Below, piece after piece: positions 1,727-21,032 of a stretch of DNA of 21,032 nt. Each line of letters starts with the position of its first letter. The first letter of the stretch is position 1. The stretch lies in the IMG/VR virus record IMGVR_UViG_3300025379_000093, positions 1-21,032 of that record, one strand, 5' to 3'. The translations under genes were made by a program, and so were the position numbers. The stretch comes from a virus. The notes under the pieces were generated by a model. That model was given only the letters and a program-made list of their open reading frames with translations, did no database searches and was not told the origin of the DNA.

Positions 1727-2175
1727 TACTTATTTATTTTAGGTGGCTTACCACCATGAAACATATCTTTTTCCGTAATTATACGCCATCCAAGATTATT
1801 TGCTTTACAGTAAGCCTGGGCGGCTTGCCACTTACACATATTAAGTATTGCAGCAGCCTGTGCTTTTTTACTATTGCCTGCTGCCTCTAGTGTAGTTTCT
1901 TTAGTAGGCTTTATTTCCCATAATTCGGCATGTTGTTTATTGTTGGCATCAACATATACCACAAAAAAATCAGGAACATATATTGTATTTTTATTAGTAA
2001 AAGGATTACGGTAGTTTATATGTATAGCTTCATTAGCCCATTGGAGTATTGACGGATTATTATCGCACATCCTCATTACTACATTCTCCCAAGAGCTACG
2101 ATAGTGCGGTGCTTTTTTACCAACATACTTTTGTGGATTTAATAATTGGTATATACCATTTGCATATTTGCTCAT
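1726..2175 (-). CDS. 4: Head completion nuclease, T4 gp4-like (PD-(D/E)XK fold)
   Basis: This 149-aa protein has the same length and plan as T4 gp4 (also called gp50/65), which acts on DNA ends and heads before tail joining. The N-terminal GIYQLLNPQKYVGK matches the family's 'NPxKYxG' opening. RSSWE follows at residues 26-30. The nuclease core can be read as Glu30, then PDF at 68-70 (Asp69), then WEIKP at 86-90 (Glu87 and Lys89), the E...D...ExK pattern of PD-(D/E)XK enzymes. A tryptophan-containing helix, KWQAAQAYCKANNLGWRII, closes it as in the family. Its ATG overlaps the HNH gene stop (ATGA), and its own stop overlaps the gp16-like start (TAATG). The gene looks intact. Confidence 0.83.
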   Translation of the reverse strand: MSKYANGIYQLLNPQKYVGKKAPHYRSSWENVVMRMCDNNPSILQWANEAIHINYRNPFTNKNTIYVPDFFVVYVDANNKQHAELWEIKPTKETTLEAAGNSKKAQAAAILNMCKWQAAQAYCKANNLGWRIITEKDMFHGGKPPKINK

Positions 2176-2846
2176 TTTATTGCCTTACAATTTTGTCCGT
2201 GCCATCTTTTATAATTAGATGCTCCGGTTCCTTCCTTCCCACAATGCTCACATTTAAAGAGAATCTGAGTTTGTATTGGATTTTTGCCTTTTCTAGTTGC
2301 GGACATTTTTAATTTGGTTTCTTCAGATGCTTTCCTACCCAGACCTGCTTTAGCTATTGCATCCCGGTGTTCTTGTGTCCTGGGCGGTCTTTTTTTCCAA
2401 GACTCTTTCATCTTTGCTTTGGTTTCTTCTGAATGTTTTCTACCAGAATAAGAAGCTAAGATTCTTTTTTGCTCATCGCTAATTTTTCTCCCCTTATTCA
2501 TTATACCCTTTCGTTCTAATGACAAAGTTTTTGCTAATTCTGATCTAATTGTTTCATAACTTCTACTATTAACAACATATCTTTTTTGATTGCCGCTAGT
2601 TCTAGTAAAACACCATACCGCCTGCAACATTTTTCTTTTTTGAACACCATCTACCATTTTAGTTAACAATCTGTGGCATATAAAATGCTCTCGAGCAGTT
2701 AGTTTCACTATATTCTCTTTTGTATCAGCACCACCAAACGACTTAGGAATTATGTGATGACGTTCAATGTACCCGGTTGGATTTCTAGAAAGAGCGGAGT
2801 TTATAATATTAAAATACCAATTAGTATATTTGTTTTCTTTAAACAT
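2172..2846 (-). CDS. Free-standing HNH homing endonuclease with NUMOD3-like DNA-binding repeats
   Basis: This is a 224-aa protein. Residues 27-60 form an HNH nuclease core: IERHHIIPKSFGG (HH at 30-31), then KENIVKLTAREHF (Asn45, His54). Downstream are short repeats of the GRKxSEETKxKM type at about 119-132, 135-148 and 170-188, the NUMOD3-like motif used by phage homing endonucleases to contact DNA. The C-terminus has CEHC (199-202) with His216 and Cys220, a likely zinc finger. Such genes copy themselves into cognate sites and are often found between essential structural genes. It sits between two conserved late genes and overlaps the gp4-like ATG by ATGA. A perfect TATAAATA lies 8 nt before the ATG, and no Shine-Dalgarno sequence is visible. 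Its A/T richness looks higher than that of its neighbours, consistent with recent acquisition. Confidence 0.88.
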   Translation of the reverse strand: MFKENKYTNWYFNIINSALSRNPTGYIERHHIIPKSFGGADTKENIVKLTAREHFICHRLLTKMVDGVQKRKMLQAVWCFTRTSGNQKRYVVNSRSYETIRSELAKTLSLERKGIMNKGRKISDEQKRILASYSGRKHSEETKAKMKESWKKRPPRTQEHRDAIAKAGLGRKASEETKLKMSATRKGKNPIQTQILFKCEHCGKEGTGASNYKRWHGQNCKAIK

Positions 2847-5268: not shown

Positions 5269-8200
5269 TTACTTGCCGCCCAATTTGGCGATATCGCCTG
5301 GGTTAAACAAGCGGATTGGAATGTAGATAAATTCAACATCTTTAGTAGGTTCAATCGCAACATCTGCATACAATTGATTGTTTGCAATACGATCTGGTGT
5401 GTTATTTGTAGTGTCGCAAACCACCAAGTAGTCATAGATACCACGTTTAGCAATCAAATCGTTCAACGCACGGTTCAATGTTGCTGCAAACTGATCACGT
5501 GTGATCTTGTCATTTGGTTCAAACAAGAACGCATTGCCTGCACTTGCAAAAATTGTACGAATGTAGTTGACCAAACGTGCAACGTTAACGCGGTCCAAGC
5601 TCTCTGTATTTGGATCACGTGTTTTCTGACCCCATACAACTAAACCAATACCAGGAATGATTGTGATTGGGTTGATCTTGTTTTGATACAGTGTATCACG
5701 TAGGGCTTGATTAACACCAGTACGCATGAACTCGCCTGTGGTGCGGTTCAAATAGCCCAAGTCTGTAGCATTGCTTACTAGGCCACGACGTGTGCCAGCA
5801 GGAGCAAACCAAGGGAAAGCCACATTGTCGTTGTACAAGTATGTACGCAATGCCATATGACTTGCAGGTACCATGATCTCGTTGCCGCTCAAGTCTGTGC
5901 TTAATCCGCCTGGATAGTAAACTGCCAAGTAAGGATCGCTTGTTGCTAGGCCTGTACCGTTGGTGTCATTACTCCAATTGATCAAGTTAACTGGGTTGGT
6001 GCTTAGATCCAACGGTGTGTCACCAATCACAAATGCTGTGTTGGCACGGTCGTTGTTTAAACTCACCATGTCTGAGATCAGTTCTGGATAACCAGGAGCA
6101 CAAATCAAGCTGAACTTGAATTGATCTTCACGGATCTCGGTGTTGGCATCAAGCGCTGCCTTCATTGCTGCAATAACAATTTGACGTTGTGCTTGGTGTC
6201 CGCTATATGGGCTACCATCATCTTTCAATCCGCTTGTTGTTACCCAAGTACCAGTTTGTAGTGGTGCCCAGTAAGTGGTGTTGGTTACTGAATTACCAGT
6301 GTTGTTGCCGTTGTACACAGAAACATAGATTGTTGATCCACCTAGTACTTTTGCACCTTGTGTATAAGTTGTACCGCTATTGTAAGCAGCCACATTATCA
6401 GCGCTGGTGTTAAAGTATCCAGTGATAAATTTCTTAACGTTGTAACCGCTGCGGCGTGTGTTACATAGCAACATGCCACGTGGATATAACAATGGGTTAG
6501 GAGCATCTAGATCTAGATAACTGCTCTGTGCCATTGCAATTGGGGTAACTTCTGTACCGCTTGCTGGATCAGTTGTACCAGTAATGTCCCAACGTGCATC
6601 AGCAAACAAGATACCGTTTGTTGTGATTTGGTCTGTGTTGTCAATTGCAACCCATGTGCTACCGTTCCAACGGCTTAGATTAGGCCAATGTTCAAGATCG
6701 CTTGTGTTTAACCACAAATCACCTCTTGCCAATGCAGTATTGTCAGTGTGAGTAGTTGGGGCAACTGCTGCTGCAATGACGCCTGATGGATCTAGTGTAC
6801 CATAAGACAAGTTGTATCCACGAGCATCAGTTAGGCCAGTTTGATAACCAACCCATGCTGTACCGGTATTGATCATGACGTCAATAACTGTAGGATCGCT
6901 ATAGTACCACAATGTGCCATTAGCAGGATCTGCAACTGGCTGAGTATCACTATAAGTGTAAGTCAATGGTGCAAAACCGCTTATGGTTGCAACTGCTGTT
7001 AGACCAGATCCAACCACATTAACGTTTGTTACGCTTGCTGTAAACCCTGCTGTTGCTGGTACGTTATAAACGCCACCAATTGGAGTCATTGTAATTGCTC
7101 CGCCAGCAGTGTGTGTTATTGTAATAGTACCATTGGCATTGACTTGTGCAGTTATGTTGGGTACATTTGCTGCTTGAATTGCAGTTACAAAATCTGTTGC
7201 ACCAGTTCCGCCTAGGGTAATTTGTGCAGTAATATTAGTAGACGACCCGGGCTGGCTAACGCTGATGTTGAACTGACTACCGTTAGTGAATGTTGGATTT
7301 GCAACACTACCAGTTGCACTTACTGCACCAGTCACAGTACGAACACGTGCGCGGTAGCCAGCATAGCCAAGCACTGCACTACCGGCAGGGTTTGGATCTT
7401 GACGCATAAAAATTGTGCCCATTGCAATGTTTGCACCGCCGCCGGTTGGGTCAAGATAGTATAATGCTGTAGATTCGTTTGGATAGCTGCTTACCGCTTG
7501 AGTGTTCCACAAACCAGTGGTTGCATTGTATTGTTTGAATACAAAGTTGGTACCACCGCCAGTGGCACCTTGTTTCAACCATACAGATCCGCCAGGTGCA
7601 TTGATATCGTTAGAAACTGTGTTGGTCCATGGTGGAATATTGGTGAATGTACCATATCCAAATGCCTCAGTACCGCTGACATAAGTTTGTAATTGTGGTG
7701 CTACTGAAACTGCATAGTAGCCGTAACTGCCGCTGTGTCCAGGGATTGCACCAACAGTTGAGCTGACTGTTAAGCCAACAGCATTGATCAATGCAACGTT
7801 ACTTGTGCTATTCCAGTTTGGATCAGTGTAGATGTTGATCTTGCCATCATTTGCAGAGATACCGCTTGAAGTACCATCGCTAAACAATGCCAACTTGTTG
7901 TTTACAACCTGTGCAGTTACACCGCTAATAGAAGCTGAGTTAATGGCTGCTGCCACGTTACTCATTGTGTAGCTGCCACCAACTGATACAGCAACGTTAG
8001 AACCGTTAATGTACATATAGCTGTTTGTAGGCAATGTTAGGCTAGTAGATACAACGCTACCAGTTACTGTGGGGTGGCTTGCACGCCATGCAGGAGTTCC
8101 AACTAACAACCACTGGTTGTAAGACGGGTTGACAGCCAATTGATTGGCCAGTGTAGGCAAGTATGGACTACATGCATCGCCTGCTTTGTAGTAAGTACGG

Positions 8201-9921: not shown

Positions 9922-10254
9922 TTAGATGTCTATGATTTTTTGTATGTTTGGTGTTCTTGATGCCCGTGCTGGATAAACTGTTTTTAAAATGAACACCAAT
10001 CGATCAGAGCTGACTCTTCTCAGTCCCAGACTGATTTCGCTGGTCCAATCATAAACCCAAAATTGTTGTCCCACTTCAACCCGTTCAAGTTTGTTGATGA
10101 TCTTGGACAAGCGCTTAAGAGTGTAGTCAACACCTCTAGGATAAACGCCACGAGTTTTTGTACGATCAAGTGCATGATCGTCAACCCGCACTTCAATTGG
10201 GCCCAGGTGTAAAGTGCCCACTGTTGCTTCATTGATGATCTCGTTGGCTAGCAT
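9922..10254 (-). CDS. Small basic protein, possible RelE/barnase-like nuclease fold
   Basis: This is a 110-aa protein. I chose the ATG at 10254 because it overlaps the gp13 stop as TAATG; a TTG five codons upstream is possible but less likely. The body has an N-terminal strand pair (LGPIEVRVDDHALDRTKTRG), a helix rich in Lys/Arg (VDYTLKRLSKIINKL), then strands EVGQQFWVYDW, ISLGLRRV and RLVFILKTVYPAR. A 'HALDRTKxRG' helix followed by strands that end in basic residues resembles small toxin-like nucleases such as DUF4258/RelE-type proteins found in phages. This is a fold-level resemblance only, and no catalytic residues can be assigned safely. It is translationally coupled to the neck gene gp13, and the dNMP kinase promoter begins at its stop codon. 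Confidence 0.65.
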   Translation of the reverse strand: MLANEIINEATVGTLHLGPIEVRVDDHALDRTKTRGVYPRGVDYTLKRLSKIINKLERVEVGQQFWVYDWTSEISLGLRRVSSDRLVFILKTVYPARASRTPNIQKIIDI

Positions 10255-11195
10255 TAACCAGTTACCCAAGTTAGAGGTCTACCGTTGTCAATATAGTTCA
10301 CAATCTCGTACTCTAAACGTGTCATTTCTTCATTGGCTTCTGCAATCATTGCAGCACCGTTTAAGCTCGTACCACCTTGTGGGCCAGCAATCTGTGCAAA
10401 CTTGCTGTAGGCTTGTCCTAGTAGACGTTTGCTGAAGCTGTAGGCATACTCTTGGATCCAAGGGAAACTGTAGGTGTCGCTCAGTATCATGCTGTCGGGT
10501 TTGATGTTATCAATCCAGAGCAGTACAGATTCAAATGGGTTCTGAGTCCCGCCACCGCCACCAGTTGATCCACCGTAACCGTAAGGCATCTTGCGTACAA
10601 TGGTCAGCTTCTTGGTTGTGGGGTTGAAGGTATAATTCAAGAAACCACCAAACATTTTCATACTGAGCTTTTGGTAGTCCACAAACAATTCATAGTTAGT
10701 AAGGCCGCCAACACGTCCTGCTTGTAACATGTAAGTGTTCATGAAACCTGACGCAAAAGGTTCAAATTGACTTGCTGTAGTGCCTGTAACCGAGCCAATA
10801 CCACGTCTAAAGGCAGCTCTAACGTTCATAATCTCTTTAGGCAGTATGTATTCCTGTGTTTCAGGCAATAGATCCAAAAAGCAGTAGCTTTCTTCCACGC
10901 TGTTGGCAGCACGTTGACGATACTTGATCAGGGCCTGGGTAATGGCCATAGCATAGTGTTCTTGCTCTAGCTCAACATCAACTATGCCATCACCTAGACG
11001 CATACGAATATAGTCTGTTATCTCACTGCGTTTTTGATCACTTGTGGGAAGTGTGCTGGGGTCAAATTGAATTGGTCCCGGTCCAGTCCCGGTACTGGGA
11101 TTGTAAAGTGTAGCAGATTTAACGCTACCAAAGACTGTTAAATTCCCGTCAATTTGGGGAGAGGTTGAAGCATTTGGGTCGCTGTATTCAGCCAT
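10254..11195 (-). CDS. 13: Neck protein, T4 gp13-like
   Basis: This is a 313-aa head-to-tail connector protein that joins the portal vertex; T4 gp13 is 309 aa. After a low-complexity N-terminus, the family block begins at about residue 58: ITDYIRMRLGDGIVDVELEQ, then AITQALIKYRQRAANSVEES and ETQEYILPKEIMNVRAAFRR. A later block has YELFVDYQKLSMKMFGGFLN, LTIVRKMPYG, and an Ile/Tyr-rich helix with ESVLLWIDN and PWIQEYAYSFSKRLLGQAYS. A Gly-rich loop (GGSTGGGGG) interrupts it. The ATG has AGGA within the upstream hairpin, and a TATAAATA sits in the hairpin. gp14 and gp15, normally next to gp13 on the same strand, are instead encoded on the opposite strand to the right. Confidence 0.85.
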   Translation of the reverse strand: MAEYSDPNASTSPQIDGNLTVFGSVKSATLYNPSTGTGPGPIQFDPSTLPTSDQKRSEITDYIRMRLGDGIVDVELEQEHYAMAITQALIKYRQRAANSVEESYCFLDLLPETQEYILPKEIMNVRAAFRRGIGSVTGTTASQFEPFASGFMNTYMLQAGRVGGLTNYELFVDYQKLSMKMFGGFLNYTFNPTTKKLTIVRKMPYGYGGSTGGGGGTQNPFESVLLWIDNIKPDSMILSDTYSFPWIQEYAYSFSKRLLGQAYSKFAQIAGPQGGTSLNGAAMIAEANEEMTRLEYEIVNYIDNGRPLTWVTG

Positions 11196-11199
11196 AAAA

Positions 11200-11230
11200 A
11201 ATCCTGTTATATGCTATTTATAACAGGATT
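11200..11230 (-). terminator. Hairpin before gp13: terminator of the early unit and RBS-sequestering stem
   Basis: On the minus strand, AATCCTGTTAT and ATAACAGGATT form a perfect 11-bp stem with a 9-nt loop, followed by TTTT and then the gp13 ATG at 11195. It starts 6 nt after the stop of the 388-aa gene. The AGGA ribosome-binding site of gp13 is in the 3' arm. Confidence 0.8.
11215..11222 (-). promoter_or_regulatory. T4-type late promoter (TATAAATA) inside the gp13 hairpin
   Basis: An exact TATAAATA on the minus strand spans the 5' arm and loop of the hairpin. The predicted start near 11209 lies at the beginning of the 3' arm, so late transcripts would lack the 5' arm and expose the AGGA. 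Confidence 0.75.
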
Positions 11231-11236
11231 GGGAGT

Positions 11237-12403
11237 TTAGGCTACTTTGAGTAACACAATGTCTGCGTTAATGCGCCCGTTCATCTTGGTTTCAGTTGCT
11301 TTGACATCGTCCAAGAACTTGCGTAGTTGCACTTTGCCTGCTCGGGCAAACTCTTTCAACTTTTCCTCGGGCTTCCTTAATGTCTTTGATACGCTCTTGT
11401 CGGTATCAAAGTTCACAATACTTGTTCCTTTGACGTTGAGTGTTTGATATGCGGCTGCTACATATCGACCCAGCTTTCTGGTTTTAACATTATATACCCA
11501 CAATGCTTGAGCCCCAATAATGTCAGCAGGATTGATTGACACAATCTTAAGGCCAGCATTATCTTTTGCGTACTTGATTTTAGCAACCACTTTTTCCCGA
11601 CTTGGAGCTTTTTTAACTCTTGCCTTCTTGAGGCTCTTTTTAACGCCGCGGTACTGTTCAACTGCGGCCAGGAGGTCGTCGATCCAAGCGATAATACGCT
11701 TGAAGTCAGCTGCCTTAAGATGGCTGTAGCCCTCTCGAACTTGTTCATCCTTTTTGGATACTGCAAGTTCAAGTTCAGCTTTTCGTGTTTTATAAACATC
11801 TTCGTATTTTCCTAACTGGCTTTGTACCACGTTGTTGGCAACAAGATAGTCATACAGTTTAGTTGGGTTCTTGACACCTGTAGCAACATCGTCAAAGATG
11901 CCCTCCAGCTCACCAATGATCTCGCTTGTGCGTTCAGCAAGTCGATCTTGAATAGTGGGACGGTAGGCTACTTGTTCTGCTGTTGCAATCTCTGCAACGG
12001 GCTCGGGTTCTGCCTTGGCAACCACTTCCATAACACTGTCAACAATGAACTCAATGTGGCGTCCACGGAAAGGCATGCCCTTGCGGTGCGCCATGATAAG
12101 GCTGCACACTGTCATAGGCAGCAAGCGATCACCTGCACGGTTAAACGCTTTGACTTCTTCGATTGAAAGTTTGCTGTTCTTTTGTAGCCACTCAACTACA
12201 TACTTTTTGCAGTCTTTTTGACTGTAGTAATAATTGTAGTAGTAGAAGCTCTTACGCAGGCGGTTGTCAAATCGTTCATTGTCCCAGTCCGCGGCTTCTG
12301 CGGGCCATTCAGGCTCGCTACCAGTGTACTTTTCATCAGCGAAAGCAATACGTGCTTGACGTGGTGCTTTGTTTTTGATCTTGATGCCTGCTACTGTTGC
12401 CAT
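11237..12403 (-). CDS. Conserved T4-type phage protein of unknown function (388 aa)
   Basis: The start is set at ATG 12403, which overlaps the upstream stop (TAATG); the longer frame begins at TTG inside the previous gene. The 388-aa protein is Lys-rich and mostly helical. Blocks include ARIAFADEKYTG near residue 20, FYYYNYYYSQKDCKKYVVEW (about residues 52-71), PTIQDRLAERTSEIIGELEG, EGYSHLKAADFKRIIAWIDD, a basic KKSLKKARVKKAPSREKVV, VSINPADIIGAQALWVYN, and VQLRKFLDDVKATETKMNGR near the end. I recall closely similar hypothetical proteins widespread in marine T4-like phages. No enzyme motif is evident. It lies in a unit with sigma70-type promoters and ends at a terminator, so early expression is predicted. 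A role in DNA or RNA handling seems as likely as a structural one. Confidence 0.8.
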   Translation of the reverse strand: MATVAGIKIKNKAPRQARIAFADEKYTGSEPEWPAEAADWDNERFDNRLRKSFYYYNYYYSQKDCKKYVVEWLQKNSKLSIEEVKAFNRAGDRLLPMTVCSLIMAHRKGMPFRGRHIEFIVDSVMEVVAKAEPEPVAEIATAEQVAYRPTIQDRLAERTSEIIGELEGIFDDVATGVKNPTKLYDYLVANNVVQSQLGKYEDVYKTRKAELELAVSKKDEQVREGYSHLKAADFKRIIAWIDDLLAAVEQYRGVKKSLKKARVKKAPSREKVVAKIKYAKDNAGLKIVSINPADIIGAQALWVYNVKTRKLGRYVAAAYQTLNVKGTSIVNFDTDKSVSKTLRKPEEKLKEFARAGKVQLRKFLDDVKATETKMNGRINADIVLLKVA

Positions 12404-12636
12404 TATACACGTTCCTTTTTCACGCGGCCAATGCGGCTCGCTTTGTTCCAATCATATACAACGCCATCGGGGCAGAGCCCGTTTTTGACGCTGTCTACAC
12501 CAAAAATCCCACAAACCTCAAAGTCCGCGCCTTTGATGGTTACAAATTCATCTATTAGTTTTGCCGCTTCCATTGCTGTGCCTAAGCTATCAAAAGCACC
12601 ACGAACAAAACCTGTATTGTCTATTACTTTGTACAT
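12403..12636 (-). CDS. Small conserved phage protein of unknown function (77 aa)
   Basis: This is a 77-aa protein with an N-terminal MYKVIDNTGFVRGAFDSLGT, a helix TAMEAAKLIDEFVTIKG, a strand FEVCGIFGVDSV and a basic C-terminus (RIGRVKKERV). I recall similar short 'MYKVIDNTGFVRG' proteins in T4-like cyanophages without a known function. It is a compact alpha/beta protein with no signal peptide. No Shine-Dalgarno sequence precedes the ATG. A TTGACT-17-TATAAT promoter ends 6 nt before it, so the mRNA may begin at the AUG. Its stop overlaps the next ATG (TAATG), linking it to the 388-aa protein. Confidence 0.72.
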   Translation of the reverse strand: MYKVIDNTGFVRGAFDSLGTAMEAAKLIDEFVTIKGADFEVCGIFGVDSVKNGLCPDGVVYDWNKASRIGRVKKERV

Positions 12637-12642
12637 GCCATT

Positions 12643-12671
12643 ATTATAACGCAGAAACCATTTTGAGTCAA
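12643..12671 (-). promoter_or_regulatory. Sigma70-type early promoter, predicted leaderless start
   Basis: On the minus strand, TTGACT (12671-12666), a 17-nt spacer and TATAAT (12648-12643) match the sigma70 consensus at 11 of 12 positions. Six bases separate the TATAAT from the ATG, so the start of transcription is expected at or within a base or two of the A of the ATG. The -35 begins one base after the TAA of the upstream gene. Confidence 0.85.
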
Positions 12672-12672
12672 G

Positions 12673-12939
12673 TTAGTACATTAGTGTTGCCATTAGATAC
12701 CACTGCTCAAACTCGTTAACGCAGATTTCAAATTTTTCCGTTAATTCTTTGTACTTATGTGTTACTTTTGACAACCGTCTACATTCCACCATTTCTCGAT
12801 CCATGGCGATGTATGCATCATTGCAGTTTGAGTAGATCTTGTACAGGGTACTACGGGCTTTGATATTTTTGGTATCCTGTACCATTTTCAAGCACTTTTG
12901 CAGGCGCTCGTAGTAATTCATGTGTGTCGGAGTCGTCAT
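12673..12939 (-). CDS. Small helical hypothetical protein, first gene of the leftward early unit
   Basis: This is an 88-aa protein that is almost wholly helical by composition: NYYERLQKCLKMVQDTKNIK, then DREMVECRRLSKVTHKYKEL and KFEICVNEFEQWYLMATLMY. It could form a coiled coil or helical bundle. I do not recognise it. The first ATG (12939) lies 6 nt after a consensus TATAAT and would give a leaderless mRNA. A second in-frame ATG at 12921 (residue 7) would have an 18-nt leader but no clear Shine-Dalgarno sequence. Its stop TAA abuts the -35 of the next promoter. The position directly behind a full-consensus promoter suggests strong early expression, as for small host-takeover proteins, which is inference. 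Confidence 0.68.
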   Translation of the reverse strand: MTTPTHMNYYERLQKCLKMVQDTKNIKARSTLYKIYSNCNDAYIAMDREMVECRRLSKVTHKYKELTEKFEICVNEFEQWYLMATLMY

Positions 12940-12945
12940 GCTGGT

Positions 12946-12974
12946 ATTATAACACCTTTTGGTTAACGTGTCAA
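12946..12974 (-). promoter_or_regulatory. Full-consensus sigma70 promoter, predicted leaderless start
   Basis: On the minus strand, TTGACA (12974-12969), a 17-nt spacer and TATAAT (12951-12946) match the sigma70 consensus at all 12 positions. TATAAT is followed by ACCAGC and then the ATG at 12939, placing the start of transcription on the ATG. Confidence 0.92.
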
Positions 12975-12979
12975 ATCAG

Positions 12980-12987
12980 CATAAATA
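12980..12987 (+). promoter_or_regulatory. T4-type late promoter (CATAAATA) for the gp14-gp15 block
   Basis: The plus strand reads CATAAATA (7 of 8 matches). T4 spacing puts the start near 12993, giving a 14-nt leader with AAAGGA ahead of the GTG at 13007. It lies back to back with the leftward early promoter. Confidence 0.65.
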
Positions 12988-13006
12988 CACGAACAAAGGA
13001 TTTACA

Positions 13007-14362
13007 GTGGCAAGACTCAGTTTATGGCAAGATGGCCGACACAGTAACGATTACAAGTTTTTTGATCGCAGAATCAGTGAAATGTTTACCATTGGCGGCA
13101 CTGGCATTCTGTGTCACAAATACTTGGGCCCAATTGCACAGGGCACACAGTTGGCAACCACGGCGGCACAGGGTGCTGCGGGACCTGTAATTAACCTACC
13201 CGATACTAGCACAATCAATCTAGGCGATACTGTAACAGGTACAGGCATTCCCACAAATGCCAAGGTCATTGCCAAAGATGCCAGCACCATCACAATCAGC
13301 GCCAATACCACCAGTGCATTGGGCATTGGTGTTACCGTGGGCATCAGCGCCAGTGCTGCACAGCCCAGCTATACTAATCAAAGTGAGCAGAACATACAGG
13401 ACTTGCTGTGGCTAGAAAACAGAGACCGCAAGTATGATACCAGCATCTACAAGATGCGCGGCATTTATCAGCGTCAAGATCAAGACTTTGACCTAAGCCA
13501 ATTTGGGCTGTTTCTAGCCACTGGTACCATCTTTATGGTGTTTCACCTGCGTGACATGGTGGACTTGATTGGGCGCAAGCTCATGAACGGTGACGTGCTT
13601 GAACTACAGCACTTGACTGATTATGACGCACTTAATCAAGACGTGCCAGCAGCACTGAAACGCTTTTATGTTGTAGGCGATGCCAGCTTTGCAAGTGAAG
13701 GTTTTACCCCAACTTGGTGGCCGCACTTATGGCGTGTTAAATTGAACCCTCTAGTGGACAGCCAAGAATACAAAGACATTCTCAACAATGTCATGGCCAG
13801 TGATGGTACTACGCCAATTGGACAGTTGTTGACTACATTGGATACCAACTTGAAGATTAACGATGCAGTTATACGTGAGGCAGAAGCCAACGTACCGTTC
13901 AGCGGTTACGATACCAGCAGCCTCTATATTGCTCCTGAAACTATTGCAGACGAGCCAGACAAAACTGCCGATGATGTGGTTGATACCGCAGATGATGTAG
14001 CAGATACTGCCGACGAGGGTCCATTGACTCCGGGTTCTACAGTATATGGCTACTTGTCAGGATCAGCAGTAGCACCAAACGAACAAGCAATGGGAGTAGG
14101 TATCATGTTCCCTGCAAATCCAATCAGTGGCGACTACTTCCTACGCACAGACTACTTGCCAAATCGTGTGTTCCGCTTTGACGGCAAGCGTTGGGTCAGC
14201 ATCAATGATGTACAGCGCACAAGTCTTACACAAGGTGCAAATAATCAAACACAGTTGGGTACCTTTGTCAACGCAAGTGGTACGTTTACTAATGCAGATG
14301 GTGCTACAGTAAATGTCCGACAAAGCCTCAGCAAGGCCCTAACACCAAAGGCAGATAATTAA
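13007..14362 (+). CDS. 14: Probable neck protein, T4 gp14-like, with inserted domain
   Basis: The start is set at GTG 13007, with AAAGGA six bases upstream and just after a late promoter; the longer frame starts at TTG without a ribosome-binding site. The 451-aa protein opens with ARLSLWQDGRHSNDYKFFDR and ISEMFTIGGTGILCHKYLGP, where gp14-type proteins have a comparable block. It continues after an insert (about 46-118, a Thr/Gly/Ala beta module with TVTGTGIPTNAKVIAKD) with EQNIQDLLWLENRDRKYD, GDVLELQHLTDY and PTWWPHLWRVKLNPL. An acidic DTADDV-type repeat at about 319-338 leads to a C-terminal module with FLRTDYLPNRVFRFDGKRWV. T4 gp14 is 256 aa. The gp14 call relies on partial similarity and on gp15 following directly (TAATG overlap). 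Confidence 0.7.
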   Translation: MARLSLWQDGRHSNDYKFFDRRISEMFTIGGTGILCHKYLGPIAQGTQLATTAAQGAAGPVINLPDTSTINLGDTVTGTGIPTNAKVIAKDASTITISANTTSALGIGVTVGISASAAQPSYTNQSEQNIQDLLWLENRDRKYDTSIYKMRGIYQRQDQDFDLSQFGLFLATGTIFMVFHLRDMVDLIGRKLMNGDVLELQHLTDYDALNQDVPAALKRFYVVGDASFASEGFTPTWWPHLWRVKLNPLVDSQEYKDILNNVMASDGTTPIGQLLTTLDTNLKINDAVIREAEANVPFSGYDTSSLYIAPETIADEPDKTADDVVDTADDVADTADEGPLTPGSTVYGYLSGSAVAPNEQAMGVGIMFPANPISGDYFLRTDYLPNRVFRFDGKRWVSINDVQRTSLTQGANNQTQLGTFVNASGTFTNADGATVNVRQSLSKALTPKADN

Positions 14363-15750
14363 TGACAGCTCCTAGCAACTACTTTTATGATGGTCAAGTC
14401 CGTAGATTTGTAAGTCAGTTTATTCGAATGGTATCAAACTTCTACGTAGAGTTTGGTAAAGACAGCAATGGTGTAACTAGCCTACAGCGTGTACCAGTCA
14501 TGTATGGAGATCCCAGCAGACAAGCCGCACAAATTATTCGTAATAACAGTGAGAACACAATCAACGCTGTTCCCGCAATGGCTGTTTATATCAACGCCTT
14601 AGAATATGATCGTGAACGTTTGCAAGATCCTTATCTAGTTGAGAGTATGCAAATACGTCAACGACAGTTTGATCCAGTAACTGGTACCTATGGCGATGCT
14701 CAAGGACAAGCCTACACAGTTGAACGCTTGATGCCTGCGCCTTATAAACTGACACTGAAGCTGGATATTTGGACCAGCAACACAGAACAAAAACTACAGC
14801 TGATTGAACAATTGGCTGCATTGTTTAACCCGGCGATGGAAATACAAAGCACTGACAACTATATTGATTGGAGCAGTCTTAGTGTTGTACTGCTTACTGA
14901 TATAACATGGGACAGTCGTACTGTGCCCACAGGTGGCGAAGAACCTATCAGTGTTGCTACTATGAATTTTGACTTGCCCATCTGGATCAGCACCAGCGCC
15001 AAGGTCAAGAAAATGGGTGTTATACAACAAGTTATTACCAACTTCCAAGATCTACAGTCACTGGACAGCTTAGGACAGCAACAGGTTATTTCTGTGCTGA
15101 ACTATGGAGTACTGTTGAACTCCTATATCAGCAGCGGAGTTCCCTACTATACACTAAAACTGCTCAAGCCACAGGATGTAGTAAACTACAATGCCTATGG
15201 ACAAGACAGTGTAATTGCTGCAAGACACACTTGGGAACCATTGCTGAATCAGTATGGTGAATTTAAATCTGGTACTAGCGAGATACGCTTAACACAGCCT
15301 AACGGCAGTGAGATCATTGGCACCATTGCCACTAATCCCAGTGATGCAACAACCCTATTGTACACACCATTTGGCGACACGTTCCCGGCCAATACACTAA
15401 ATGCTGTCAATGCCATTATTGATCCACAGAATGTCAATGTGGGCAGCTTCTTAACCAATCCTTCAAACGGTACTCGTTATCTCTTGGTCAATGACATTGG
15501 CGACTACAATAACATTGCTGGTGCAGTTGCTTGGAAGGGCACTGACGGAAATGATTTGGTTGCACATGCCAACGATATTGTTGAATATAATGGCGCACAC
15601 TGGCGAGTGGTATTTGACAGTGCCAATGAAAATAGTTTACAATATGTAACAAATCTAACAACCGGTATTCAATACAAATGGCAAAACAACCAATGGTCAA
15701 AGAGCTACGACGGACTGTACAACGAGGGCGAGTGGATGCTGGTCCTTTGA
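14362..15750 (+). CDS. 15: Tail sheath stabiliser / tail completion protein, T4 gp15-like
   Basis: This 462-aa protein caps the tail and joins it to the neck; T4 gp15 is 272 aa. The N-terminal 230 residues have the family plan: NYFYDGQVRRFVSQFIRM (as in gp15 'YFYNSSFRRY'), LQRVPVMYGDPSRQAAQII, a central PAPYKLTLKLDIWTSNTEQK, QLIEQLAALFNPAMEIQ, and ISVATMNFDLPIWISTSAKV. After about residue 255 there is a C-terminal extension absent from T4 gp15, with beta-rich segments (SEIRLTQPNGSEIIGTI, GSFLTNPSNGTRYLLVNDIG) and a Trp/Tyr-rich tail (YKWQNNQWSKSYDGLY). The start overlaps the gp14 stop (TAATG). The last 73 bases overlap the NUDIX gene in another frame. Confidence 0.88.
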   Translation: MTAPSNYFYDGQVRRFVSQFIRMVSNFYVEFGKDSNGVTSLQRVPVMYGDPSRQAAQIIRNNSENTINAVPAMAVYINALEYDRERLQDPYLVESMQIRQRQFDPVTGTYGDAQGQAYTVERLMPAPYKLTLKLDIWTSNTEQKLQLIEQLAALFNPAMEIQSTDNYIDWSSLSVVLLTDITWDSRTVPTGGEEPISVATMNFDLPIWISTSAKVKKMGVIQQVITNFQDLQSLDSLGQQQVISVLNYGVLLNSYISSGVPYYTLKLLKPQDVVNYNAYGQDSVIAARHTWEPLLNQYGEFKSGTSEIRLTQPNGSEIIGTIATNPSDATTLLYTPFGDTFPANTLNAVNAIIDPQNVNVGSFLTNPSNGTRYLLVNDIGDYNNIAGAVAWKGTDGNDLVAHANDIVEYNGAHWRVVFDSANENSLQYVTNLTTGIQYKWQNNQWSKSYDGLYNEGEWMLVL

Positions 15751-16160
15751 TTGGTGCCGGGGCCTTAATCTACTGTAGAACTACTCACAGATATCTTTTC
15801 TTACTGCGCGATGGCGGAACACACAGCGGCACTTGGGGCCTTGTTGGCGGTAAAATTGAACCAGGCGAAACAGTTGTTGCTGGACTGACTAGAGAGATTG
15901 CCGAAGAATTAGGTGGCATTATTAAAGATGCTAAATTGGTGCCAATTGAAAAGTTTACTAGCGACACCAACAAGTTTGAATACCACACCTACGTTATACG
16001 TGTGGACGAGGAGTTTGTACCTACACTAAACAGTGAGCATCGCGGCTACTGTTGGGTACCACTAAATGACTACCCCCGGCCTCTGCATCCGGGGGTTTGG
16101 CGTACATTCAAATTTAGCAGCGTTATCGATAAGATACGCACACTAGAAACATTAACCTAA
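15678..16160 (+). CDS. NUDIX hydrolase
   Basis: This is a 160-aa protein. Residues 60-82 hold a complete NUDIX box: GKIEPGE, then TVVAGLT, then REIAEELGG, fitting Gx5Ex7REUxEExG. The two Glu of REIAEE bind the metal. The enzyme would cleave a nucleoside diphosphate linked to another group; the substrate cannot be read from the sequence. The flanks GAGALIYCRTTHRYLFLLRD and SGTWGLVGG are normal NUDIX strands. The start is uncertain: ATG 15678, ATG 15693 and GTG 15732 are all in frame, and only the GTG has a purine-rich site upstream. ELRRTVQRGR before the core argues for an early start. It lies downstream of gp15 and ends by overlapping the leftward GNGPS gene by 9 bp. Phages use NUDIX enzymes for nucleotide housekeeping or RNA cap/NAD removal. 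Confidence 0.88.
   Translation: MAKQPMVKELRRTVQRGRVDAGPLIGAGALIYCRTTHRYLFLLRDGGTHSGTWGLVGGKIEPGETVVAGLTREIAEELGGIIKDAKLVPIEKFTSDTNKFEYHTYVIRVDEEFVPTLNSEHRGYCWVPLNDYPRPLHPGVWRTFKFSSVIDKIRTLETLT
16072..16096 (+). other. GC-rich hairpin inside the end of the NUDIX gene
   Basis: ACCCCCGG and CCGGGGGT form a perfect 8-bp stem around a 9-nt loop (16080-16088), about 65 nt before the NUDIX stop and close to the convergent junction with the GNGPS gene. Only TTT follows, so it is a weak or factor-assisted terminator at best. Confidence 0.4.
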
Positions 16161-16918: not shown

Positions 16919-16926
16919 TATTTATT
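16919..16926 (-). promoter_or_regulatory. T4-type late promoter (AATAAATA) for the GNGPS gene
   Basis: The minus strand reads AATAAATA (7 of 8 matches), overlapping the TAA stop of the LamG gene. T4 spacing gives a start near 16913 and a short leader that begins at the AGGA site. Confidence 0.5.
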
Positions 16927-19900
16927 GAGCTATGTCACTAATAGTTGGAGGAGTAAAGTTGCCAGTGTAACGTGCATATTTGGTAATGCGTACATCGTCT
17001 AGATACCCGTTGAATGACACATTGTTTGAAGATCCCAGTGTCACTGGAAGCGTAGCCACTGCTTGCGGGGTACCGCTGATTGTGCCAGTAGCCGATGATA
17101 CTCCATTGATATAGATGGTTAATGCGCCGGCATTGTTTACAAACGCCAAATGATACCATTGCCCCGTTGATAATGTAGTACTTGTGGTCAAAGTCTGTGC
17201 TGAACCGTTGTAGTAATACCAACGAACTGTACCGCCAGCAATTGGGCCAAATGCCCAGTAGGTACTGGTACCTGTTGCACCCAAGCAGCCCAATACAGTG
17301 GATTCACCGTTGCCGCCAGTAGTGAATGCGTTGGCATAGATCCAGTATTCAACTGTGTATGATCCAAGCCACCATTGCAATGCTGGTAGTGATTGGAATG
17401 ACTGCAAGTACGCTCCGCTAGTACCAGTGAACTGTAGACTTCTAGTACCATATTTGACTGTACTGGTACTTGTTTGTATGTTACCAACGGTTGCAAAATT
17501 AAACGAACCGTGTTGATCAACAATACCGCCGTTGTTGAAGTTTAGCAAAAGAGTTGCTGGAGTAGAGTTGGCATAGTTTGTCAGTGGTGCTGTGGGAGGA
17601 GTAAATGCAGTGGTATACACCGCAGTTCCCGGGGTAATTCTAACATCACTGATGTATCCCGGGAAGTAGGCATTGCTACCGTTGTTGTTGTTGGCAACAG
17701 ATAGTGCCCCAGCGCCAGTAAATGAAGATAAAGTTACCGACGCTGTACCAGCAGCAACACCGTTTAAGAAGAAGTAGACTGTTGTGCCCGAGACACTGAT
17801 GGCAATATGATTCCAAGTACTTGCATAAATGTTGACTGTGCTTGAGTTGTAGGTGCCGTTACTTGTTCCACTTCCGCCAGATTGTGGTTGCCAGCTAATC
17901 ACCCCTGCTGTACCACCGCTAGCAGATCCAGTCAAGTATACACCCCATTCGTAGTCGCTGGTGCCGGTACGACCTTTTTGTATTAGGTTGTAGTTGGTGT
18001 TACTCCAAGTACTAGAGAAGTTGACCCAAAACTCAATGGTCATGTTGCGATTGGCAATGCCCTGTAGCGTGGTTGTACTTGGTACAGTCAGATAATCAGT
18101 ACTGCCATTGAAGTATGCGCTGCCACCGTTTGTCGTTGGCGAGTAGATCACCCCTGGAGAGAATGGGGTAAAGGCTTGAGCACTCGGAGTACCCGTTGGG
18201 GTTATTGTATAGTTATTGGTTGAGTTGTCTTTGAAACGGTTACTTTGGCAAGTCAACACAGCAGTGCCTGATACTGCTGTCAAAGGTGTAGTGCTCGGAG
18301 TAAAGTTAGTAGTGTAGACTGCTGTACCGTTAACTACGCGAGCATTGGAAATATAGCCATTCCAAAAATAAGTGTTGCCTGAAGTTTGACGACCAATTGA
18401 ACCAGATCCTGCTATACCAATACTGGTCACTGTAAGTGTACCCGAACCAGATGCAACACCATTTAAATATACAGTCAAAGTAGTTCCGTTGCGAACTGCT
18501 GCAATGTGTGTCCATTGATTAATGGGAACTGTGCCTGTTCCTATTGCAGTATATGTACTAGCACCAGTAGCATAACTAAATGCCAGTGTTCCCGAACTAT
18601 TCAACCACAGTTGCCACATCCCGTTGGCGTAAGAACCAAATGCGTTTAACCAATTGTCAATTGCAATTTGACCTGTGCCATATGCCGATGTGTAGACCCA
18701 GCATTCTACTGTAAAGTTATTTGTACCAAATACAAATGCTCCAGTTGGCACAGTTAGATAATCAGTGCTGCCGTTGAACAAGTTGCTCCAGCCCATTTGA
18801 CTGTAGGGACTGAATGTGCCCTGTGCAGTTGTGCCTGCACGAGTTATGATGTTGTTGAATTCACTGTTGTCTGCAAAGCCACCGTTGGTAGCGCCACCGT
18901 TGTTCTGTAGTGTCAACAAGCTGGTGTTTGCCACTGCGGTCAGTGGTTGATAAGTGGGCGCAAAAGTTGCTGTATATAGTGCAGTACCATTGACTACACG
19001 AACATCACTTAGATATCCTGCAAATTTAAGGGTAGTGGTTGCATCTCTATAGTCAACAGTACTGGCAATGGTACAGTATGTATCAGTACAAGATGTTGCA
19101 CTTGCTGCTGACCCAACCTGTGTGCCGTTCATATACAGATAGATTGTTCCACTGACCTTGACCATTGCAATATGAGTCCAGCTGTTCAATGCGATTACAG
19201 TAGTTGACGTGAACAATGTAGTGGCGTTGACATAAACATAGGGCTGATTTGATGAGTTAATTGCCAAAGCTACTCCGCTAGCCGATGTTCCAACTGCTCG
19301 TGTGTCAAACAAACACATGGTCTTGCCTGCCACTGTGGGATATACCCACATTTCAACTGTGTAGTTGCTGGTGCCAAACGCAAATTGACTACCCGGGGCT
19401 GCTGTCAAATAATCTGCTGTACCACTAAAGTAAGTTGCGCTAAGTTTAGATAAATTTGAAACTGTTGCCGTTGGTACAGTAAACGGATAAGTGTTGTTGA
19501 CAACTTTGACGTTACCAGTGGGTGTTAATGTAAGTGCATTAGAACTTGCATCAACAATGGCATTGCCTTGACAAGTCAACAATGTGGTATTGGCAATTGC
19601 AGTTAATGGGGCAGTCGGGGGCGTAAAGTTACTAGTATATACTGCTGTGCCAACAACTAAACGCAAGTTGCTGATATAGCCAGGCATATATTCTTGTGTA
19701 TTATCTAAACTACCAATAAAGAATCCAGATGCAGTGAAGTTGCTGTTTGTAGATGTAGTAGTCGATCCTACACCTGTGCCATTGATATATGCAGTGATGG
19801 TAGCACCATTGCGAACAAATGCAAAATGATACCATGTATTGGTAGCAATAACCCCTGAACTAGATGCAATTTGTCTAGCACCGTTGTAATACATCACAAC

Positions 19901-21032
19901 AATACCTGAACTATCAGTACCAATGTTGAAACCTGTTGTGCCTCTAGTGATGGAAAACCAATCCATATAGTTATACAATGCGGTATGGTATACCCAACCT
20001 TCAATAGTGAAGTTACTATTTCCTATTGTTGTACTTAGTGTACCACTTAAACTTGAGCCTGCACTAGTAGAAGTACCATTAAAGTAAACACTATAACCAA
20101 TATTGGCTGTGATGCTGGATGGTGTGGCAAACGGAGAGGCTGGGGAGATGTTTACTGTGCCATTCTTGGTTATTGCGAGGTTGTTTGCACTTTTGTCAAC
20201 AATGCTGGTTGATTGGCTGGTCAATAGTGCTGTGTTTGCTACTGAGGTTAGTGATGTTGTGCTTGGAGTAAAGTTTGCGGTGTATAGTGCTGCGCCGTTG
20301 ACCAATCTCAAGTTAGACACATATCCATTGATATAATATGAACCAGATACTGCGTATCCAATATAAAATGTGTTGGAATTAGAGTCTATTACTCTTGAAC
20401 CAATGCTGGTGTTTGTTGCACCAACTTGCGCTCCATCTAAGAAGAAGTAGGTATTGGATCCGCTTCTAGACACTGCAACATGGTGCCACGTATATGTTGT
20501 CAGTGTGCCTGTTCCAACTTGAATGTTATAACCTGTACTACTAGAGTTGTATCCCAATTGGAGTAGGCTACCACCGTTGAATACTGAATTAACAATAAGC
20601 CAATAAGAACCACTTCCAGTACCGTCATTAAGATTACCCAGTAACAACATTTTTCCAGTGCTCATGGGGAATATCCAAGCCTCAATGGTAAAGTTGTTGC
20701 TGCCTACTTGTAGTGCGCTGGGGGTACCTAAAGTTAAGTACCCACTAGAGCCGTCAAACAAGTTACTGTAGTAACCATCACCCAAGTAGGGTGTAGTCAA
20801 TGTTGGGCGTGTGTTGCCCACAATGGTCACTGCGGTGTTATTGCTGCTGGCATCTGCAATAAAACTTGTATTGGTAGTTTCGCCGTTGAGCAACATGGTG
20901 GTTGAGGTAAACTGCGGATCATATGCAGATAGTGTCAGTGCAATGTTGCCCGAAGTTGTGGTCTCGTTGTACAAGTCTGTGGCATTGACATAGAAATAGA
21001 AAGTTTGAACGCCGCCGCTGACAGCAACTGTG
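16922..21032 (-). CDS. Large LamG-repeat (concanavalin-like) phage adhesin, N-terminus beyond window
   Basis: The frame is open to the right edge: upstream of the TTG at 20974 it continues as VAVSGGVQTFYFYVNATD, so the true start lies outside. At least 1370 residues are visible. There are six laminin-G/concanavalin-type domains, each with F-NGS-DYLTV, NFTIE-WVY, W-H-A-VR-GT---YLNG and NGYISN-R-VNGTA-YT-NFTP--PLT. Approximate positions, from the first domain leftwards: 20765-20215, 20095-19560, 19440-18905, 18780-18240, 18117-17535 and 17440-16925. Such domains bind glycans or proteins and are common in phage tail fibres and decoration proteins. The protein is Ser/Thr/Gly-rich with almost no Cys or Lys. 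A receptor-binding or virion-surface role is inferred. It ends at the promoter of the GNGPS gene. Confidence 0.87.
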   Translation of the reverse strand, partial: TVAVSGGVQTFYFYVNATDLYNETTTSGNIALTLSAYDPQFTSTTMLLNGETTNTSFIADASSNNTAVTIVGNTRPTLTTPYLGDGYYSNLFDGSSGYLTLGTPSALQVGSNNFTIEAWIFPMSTGKMLLLGNLNDGTGSGSYWLIVNSVFNGGSLLQLGYNSSSTGYNIQVGTGTLTTYTWHHVAVSRSGSNTYFFLDGAQVGATNTSIGSRVIDSNSNTFYIGYAVSGSYYINGYVSNLRLVNGAALYTANFTPSTTSLTSVANTALLTSQSTSIVDKSANNLAITKNGTVNISPASPFATPSSITANIGYSVYFNGTSTSAGSSLSGTLSTTIGNSNFTIEGWVYHTALYNYMDWFSITRGTTGFNIGTDSSGIVVMYYNGARQIASSSGVIATNTWYHFAFVRNGATITAYINGTGVGSTTTSTNSNFTASGFFIGSLDNTQEYMPGYISNLRLVVGTAVYTSNFTPPTAPLTAIANTTLLTCQGNAIVDASSNALTLTPTGNVKVVNNTYPFTVPTATVSNLSKLSATYFSGTADYLTAAPGSQFAFGTSNYTVEMWVYPTVAGKTMCLFDTRAVGTSASGVALAINSSNQPYVYVNATTLFTSTTVIALNSWTHIAMVKVSGTIYLYMNGTQVGSAASATSCTDTYCTIASTVDYRDATTTLKFAGYLSDVRVVNGTALYTATFAPTYQPLTAVANTSLLTLQNNGGATNGGFADNSEFNNIITRAGTTAQGTFSPYSQMGWSNLFNGSTDYLTVPTGAFVFGTNNFTVECWVYTSAYGTGQIAIDNWLNAFGSYANGMWQLWLNSSGTLAFSYATGASTYTAIGTGTVPINQWTHIAAVRNGTTLTVYLNGVASGSGTLTVTSIGIAGSGSIGRQTSGNTYFWNGYISNARVVNGTAVYTTNFTPSTTPLTAVSGTAVLTCQSNRFKDNSTNNYTITPTGTPSAQAFTPFSPGVIYSPTTNGGSAYFNGSTDYLTVPSTTTLQGIANRNMTIEFWVNFSSTWSNTNYNLIQKGRTGTSDYEWGVYLTGSASGGTAGVISWQPQSGGSGTSNGTYNSSTVNIYASTWNHIAISVSGTTVYFFLNGVAAGTASVTLSSFTGAGALSVANNNNGSNAYFPGYISDVRITPGTAVYTTAFTPPTAPLTNYANSTPATLLLNFNNGGIVDQHGSFNFATVGNIQTSTSTVKYGTRSLQFTGTSGAYLQSFQSLPALQWWLGSYTVEYWIYANAFTTGGNGESTVLGCLGATGTSTYWAFGPIAGGTVRWYYYNGSAQTLTTSTTLSTGQWYHLAFVNNAGALTIYINGVSSATGTISGTPQAVATLPVTLGSSNNVSFNGYLDDVRITKYARYTGNFTPPTISDIAQ

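Follow-up and report, generated by a model that had tools for sequence, protein, structure and literature searches.

Can a phage message transcribed from a sigma70-type promoter begin directly with its start codon, and is this arrangement a regular feature of the phages that carry it? The question is raised by two small genes (genes 1 and 2; Table 1) in the window, by which we mean the whole 21,032-nucleotide stretch of viral DNA that was analysed, a 21-kb IMG/VR virus record of an uncultured lake phage that carries genes for tail sheath, head-tail adaptor, and dNMP kinase. An earlier sequence-only reading had pointed to TTGACA-17-TATAAT-ACCAGC-ATG and TTGACT-17-TATAAT-AATGGC-ATG ahead of these genes, and both are present exactly, on the minus strand (12974-12937 and 12671-12634), with a TG preceding the -10 box of promoter 1. 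They are the top sigma70 matches (12/12 and 11/12) in a scan of window positions 10000-16000; a third 11/12 match, at 15614, has an 18-nt spacer and no ATG at N6. The window holds two TATAAT-N6-ATG promoters, whereas among 1000 dinucleotide-shuffled sequences 993 had no such site, 7 had one, and not one had two. Reading of the window sequence also bore out the claim that both genes lack a Shine-Dalgarno (SD) sequence, as none stands at normal distance 5' of either ATG. No other start codon separates either ATG from the in-frame stop 5' of it, so that each gives its ORF at full length; promoter 2 occupies the gap from the gene 1 stop to the gene 2 ATG, and RNA folding around both 5' ends showed nothing remarkable. 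Because the two ATGs sit at the expected RNA start, the messages would have no ribosome-binding leader.

Table 1. Features of the two promoters and their surroundings (window coordinates).
Feature	Position	Strand	Description
T4-like late promoter box CATAAATA	12980..12987	+	putative function, from motif and position
Sigma70-type promoter 1	12946..12974	-	TTGACA 12969-12974, 17-nt spacer, TATAAT 12946-12951; kept in relatives
N6 of promoter 1 (ACCAGC)	12940..12945	-	length fixed, bases vary across relatives
Gene 1 ATG	12937..12939	-	predicted +1 is the A at 12939
Gene 1	12673..12939	-	88-aa protein; predicted leaderless
Sigma70-type promoter 2	12643..12671	-	TTGACT 12666-12671, 17-nt spacer, TATAAT 12643-12648
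N6 of promoter 2 (AATGGC)	12637..12642	-	
Gene 2 ATG	12634..12636	-	predicted +1 is the A at 12636
Gene 2	12403..12636	-	77-aa conserved protein, no assigned function; predicted leaderless
SD of gene 3 (AAGGA)	12413..12417	-	
Gene 3	11237..12403	-	388-aa phrog_11903 protein; SD-led; ATG 12401-12403

Genes 1 and 2 sit in a structural-gene region. No Pfam or PHROG family was found for either, and the few Pfam matches of single gene-1 relatives were inconsistent between members and were discounted. The predicted fold of gene 1 is a three-helix bundle (pLDDT 90) with no match to solved structures at E<=0.001, and the viral proteins that match it best are phage proteins without a name; the fold prediction for gene 2 has low confidence (62.6). 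The start of gene 3 and the stop of gene 2 overlap (TAATG). A TATAATG at gene 3 was considered as a third promoter and not counted, because its ATG is part of the box itself and gene 3 has an SD. The late box at 12980 stands back to back with promoter 1, 5' of an SD-led structural gene (GTG 13007), and two further T4-like late boxes, at 11222 and 1217 (both TATAAATA), precede SD-led genes as well. Elsewhere in the window, a 224-aa ORF among the tail genes (2172-2846, minus strand) looks by eye like an HNH homing endonuclease, and a 1350-aa ORF (16922-20974, minus strand) has repeated segments that by eye resemble LamG/concanavalin domains and might be a tail adhesin. Searching the window against Rfam and for tRNA genes gave no matches.

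To place the window, we compared it with known phages and with IMG/VR, where at least 80 closer relatives are found. Several of these lie on contigs of 320-374 kb, and the clade is therefore one of jumbo phages. Judged by sequence and gene order, the window is part of the genome of a jumbo myovirus whose nearest cultured relatives, Pseudomonas phage PA5oct (Arenbergviridae) among them, are distant; the window and PA5oct share the order of gene-3 homologue, head-tail adaptor, dNMP kinase, and tail sheath. The PA5oct homologue of gene 3 has, however, no more than 31% identity across 74% of the query, so that a close sequence relationship is lacking, and no DNA match of window 11500-14500 was found in the phage collection. 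The sole match in bacterial genomes is a gene-3 homologue with 67% identity on L401, a 23-kb contig assigned to an uncultured Chitinophagaceae MAG; the contig is possibly mis-binned phage DNA and was left out of account for the host.

Whether the spacing of six nucleotides is fixed can be judged from about 80 relatives, in whose promoter-proximal orthologues of genes 1 and 2 it is nearly always kept, with a few cases of 7-9 nt. A profile search that made no use of the promoter supplied the orthologues of both genes. For gene 1, the ATG stands at six nucleotides past the -10 box (d=6) in 34 out of 47 distinct informative contexts, at d=7 in 8, at d=8 in 4, and at d=9 in 1; for gene 2, it stands at d=6 in 17 out of 18 promoter-proximal contexts and at d=7 in the other. 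This tally is our own count, takes the first in-frame ATG where two stand close, and omits the SD flags of L036 and L068, which are contig-edge artefacts. Across the relatives, the 73 promoter instances with an ATG at 6 nt have 40 distinct N6 hexamers and 45 distinct 17-nt spacers. We found no SD fitting a leadered start in the promoter-proximal contexts of gene 1 or gene 2, and the case that the sequence-only reading had named as contrary to its claim, homologues whose start is a downstream ATG with a ribosome-binding site, is absent from all promoter-proximal orthologues. In L022-L026, the N6 ATG behind promoter 2 belongs to a 143-aa ORF, and gene 2, which has an internal position there, is preceded by GAGGA; M1 of gene 2 is invariant in the alignment, such SD-led internal copies included. 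Where a promoter stands directly 5' of gene 3 (L056, L061, L063, L065-L067, L069, L070, L073, L076, and L081), gene 3 has a leader of 20-40 nt with an SD-like sequence. Another relative (L058:2077-3374) carries several tandem units of promoter and small gene between genes 1 and 2, and the near-identity of their promoters suggests unit duplication.

We also scanned four large relatives (354, 338, 374, and 145 kb) for TATAAT preceded at 16-18 nt by a -35 box of 5/6 or better (136 sites), measuring the distance to the first ATG ORF of at least 60 aa that begins 3-60 nt past the -10 box. The distribution of -10-to-ATG distances in these four genomes is bimodal. Among 73 strong sigma70 promoters with an ATG ORF within 60 nt, 29 fall into a class at 5-7 nt, 23 of them at exactly 6, and not one has an SD (0/29); 41 fall into a class at 17-45 nt, where an SD is present in 31 out of 41, and a single promoter lies at 9-16 nt (Fisher P=1.6e-11). 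A reversed-genome control gave no ATG ORFs at 5-8 nt. Starts at d=6 that open an ORF of at least 60 aa comprise 23 ATG, 0 GTG, and 0 TTG. Leaderless counts vary by genome, with few in G003. The class includes small proteins without an assigned function and others mostly in DNA metabolism and accessory roles (UvdE, an Rv2179c-like exonuclease, a PD-(D/E)XK exonuclease, a GIY-YIG protein, an AAA_33 protein, DnaJ, an N6/N4 DNA methylase, a primase-like protein, and an NAD-synthetase-like protein). Some N6-ATG promoters open ORFs of only 3-6 codons (-10 boxes at 282883 and 299568 in G001, and at 6468 and 26180, minus strand, in G004), and these ORFs (e.g. ATG TTA AGC AAT TAA) are possible leaderless mini-ORFs. 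Two distant relatives share a conserved transcript start, TGTAGATGCCCGGGTGGGGTCTACA (G004 near 47892; G005 near 19119, minus strand), which from its sequence is likely a hairpin leader.

The position of the RNA start can be predicted independently from promoters that are free of the ATG constraint. At the leadered promoters (n=39), a pyrimidine stands at d=5 in 38, an A at d=6 in 28, and a T at d=7 in 28. This Y-A-T is the classical start-site pattern and therefore places the predicted +1 on the A at d=6, in keeping with the claim that +1 falls on the A of the ATG. Predicted 5' ends are often AUA(GCAA...) at leadered promoters and AUG at leaderless ones, and a one-base difference can separate the two: at a leadered promoter of G001 whose -10 box stands at 183158 on the minus strand, the N6 is that of gene 2 of the window, AATGGC, and ATAG follows. 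Alternatively, +1 might lie 1-4 nt 5' of the ATG, leaving a tiny leader too short for an SD. That orthologues with 7-9 nt exist, a spacing allowing a leader of 1-3 nt, and that sigma70 start sites scatter by 1-2 nt both count in favor of such a leader, but the sharp peak at 6 (23/29) and the A at d=6 in leadered promoters speak against it, and we regard it as improbable.

A second alternative is that the spacing is a coincidence and that the promoters serve leadered messages with true starts downstream, for example at Met7 of gene 1; the in-frame ATG at codon 7 of gene 1 in the window does align with the start of other orthologues. Yet codons 2-6 are under synonymous constraint: the window (ACG ACT CCG ACA CAC), L004 (ACA ACT CCG ACT CAC), and L008 (ACA ACC CCA ACG CAC) differ only synonymously (MTTPTH), and gene 1 of L003 has no internal Met. 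It therefore appears to be the N6 ATG, rather than Met7, from which gene 1 is translated. There is also no SD 5' of Met7, the gene 2 orthologues align at M1, and the genome-wide spacing falls into two modes, all of which make coincidence highly unlikely. It is hardly credible that genes 1 and 2 owe most of their expression to upstream or late read-through with unstructured SD-free initiation and make only minor use of the sigma70 sites, since, for all their location among structural genes with late boxes at 12980 and 11222, the box at 12980 is directed away from gene 1, the promoters are near-consensus and conserved in position, and each gene owns one.

We consider it very probable that these host-sigma70-type promoters have their +1 on the A of the ATG (or within 1-2 nt), that genes 1 and 2 are leaderless, and that they belong to a clade-wide two-mode programme. 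Host RNA polymerase would start on the A of the AUG at both promoters, genes 1 and 2 would be expressed from mRNAs beginning 5'-AUG, and the ribosome would recognise the 5'-terminal AUG instead of pairing with an SD. A single promoter type would thereby serve two modes, with the RNA either beginning on AUG without an SD or carrying a 17-45-nt SD leader after a first triplet that is mostly AUA or one like it. Such leaderless messages might, as the sequence-only reading suggested, be translated by 70S ribosomes even when initiation is disturbed. The proposal of leaderless mRNAs with a fixed N6 is thus supported by the spacing in relatives, the genome-wide bimodality, the SD-free 5-7-nt class, and the position of +1. 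From these sequence features we infer the RNA 5' ends and the recognition of the 5'-AUG in translation, as well as early timing, which is consistent with the host sigma70-like promoter type (as opposed to the T4-like late boxes) and with the kinds of gene found in the class. The gene 1 mRNA might also serve for the translation of gene 2.

Leaderless phage messages had been said to be known already, and two systems confirm this. Lambda PRM is a sigma70 promoter with +1 on the A of the AUG, and cI is a single lysogeny gene transcribed from a weak, activated promoter; the window clade, in contrast, has near-consensus promoters and dozens of genes. The translation of the leaderless cI mRNA is described in PMC9031893. 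The large Thermus phage phiYS40 has, like the window clade, a whole class of leaderless mRNAs (PMC3594737), but its class is middle/late, its host is Thermus, and IF2 is raised and IF3 lowered (PMC3594737), whereas the window clade uses consensus sigma70-type promoters, has its other genes SD-led, and shows no IF3 gene in the five records searched. Leaderless genes are common in the Thermus group (PMC3160421). Bacterial TA-led leaderless genes have a -10 box ~6-7 bp 5' of the ORF and no SD (PMC3160421, PMC12340547), and their leaderlessness was likewise deduced from sequence. The corresponding features, a -10 box ~6-7 nt 5' of the start, no SD, and an AUG start, are all found here; the TA-led genes, however, occur mostly in Actinobacteria and Deinococcus-Thermus and have TANNNT, as against a full -35/-10 consensus in viruses. 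In the open-licence literature searched, we found no published leaderless sigma70 class in jumbo myoviruses.

The phages also encode parts of the translation machinery. All five large relatives searched encode bS21 (L399, G001:211696-211848, and the matching places in G002-G005), a protein that contacts the SD helix (PMC9723584). G001 has a predicted tmRNA and 48 predicted tRNA genes in tRNA clusters, one of them for a Met tRNA in which positions A1 and A72 are mismatched, as they are in initiators; the tRNA-Met at L097:319-393 has this A1-A72 mismatch and the anticodon arm GGCTCATAACC. We read the A1-A72 Met tRNA as initiator-like from its sequence. Leaderless mRNAs bind 70S ribosomes directly and are stimulated by initiator tRNA (PMC9031893); a phage-encoded IF3 was found in none of the five records. 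A link of bS21 and the Met tRNA to the leaderless class is speculation. It is conceivable, although we think it rather doubtful, that translation deliberately runs in two channels, a 5'-AUG bypassing the SD and a 5'-AUA with an SD leader, with bS21 and the initiator-like tRNA shifting ribosomes between them.

To see how widely such starts occur, we scanned IMG/VR for consensus promoters with N5, N6, N7, N9, and N12, the figures describing ORF length among the matches listed and not rates. Among the matches listed, the ATG opens an ORF of at least 60 aa in 76 out of 117 at N6 (65%), 58 out of 113 at N7, 48 out of 109 at N5, 50 out of 110 at N9, and 25 out of 111 at N12 (23%). Given this excess at N6 among the matches listed, consensus-promoter viruses probably often have leaderless or near-leaderless starts, and the window clade is probably not alone in this. 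The sharp split into two classes is, on present sequence data, seen only in the window clade; PA5oct lacks the N6 pile-up (1/6 promoter-ATG matches) and its small upstream genes have other start contexts, and the pile-up was not seen in seven other cultured relatives either.

Leaderless mRNA in SD-using hosts is usually considered rare. In the window clade, ~40% (29/73) of the strong host-type promoters that have an ORF close by appear to be leaderless, beside SD-led genes and a phage bS21. The clade would aid start-codon annotation, because gene finders reward an SD, and it would offer a natural system in which to ask what leaderless initiation is good for.
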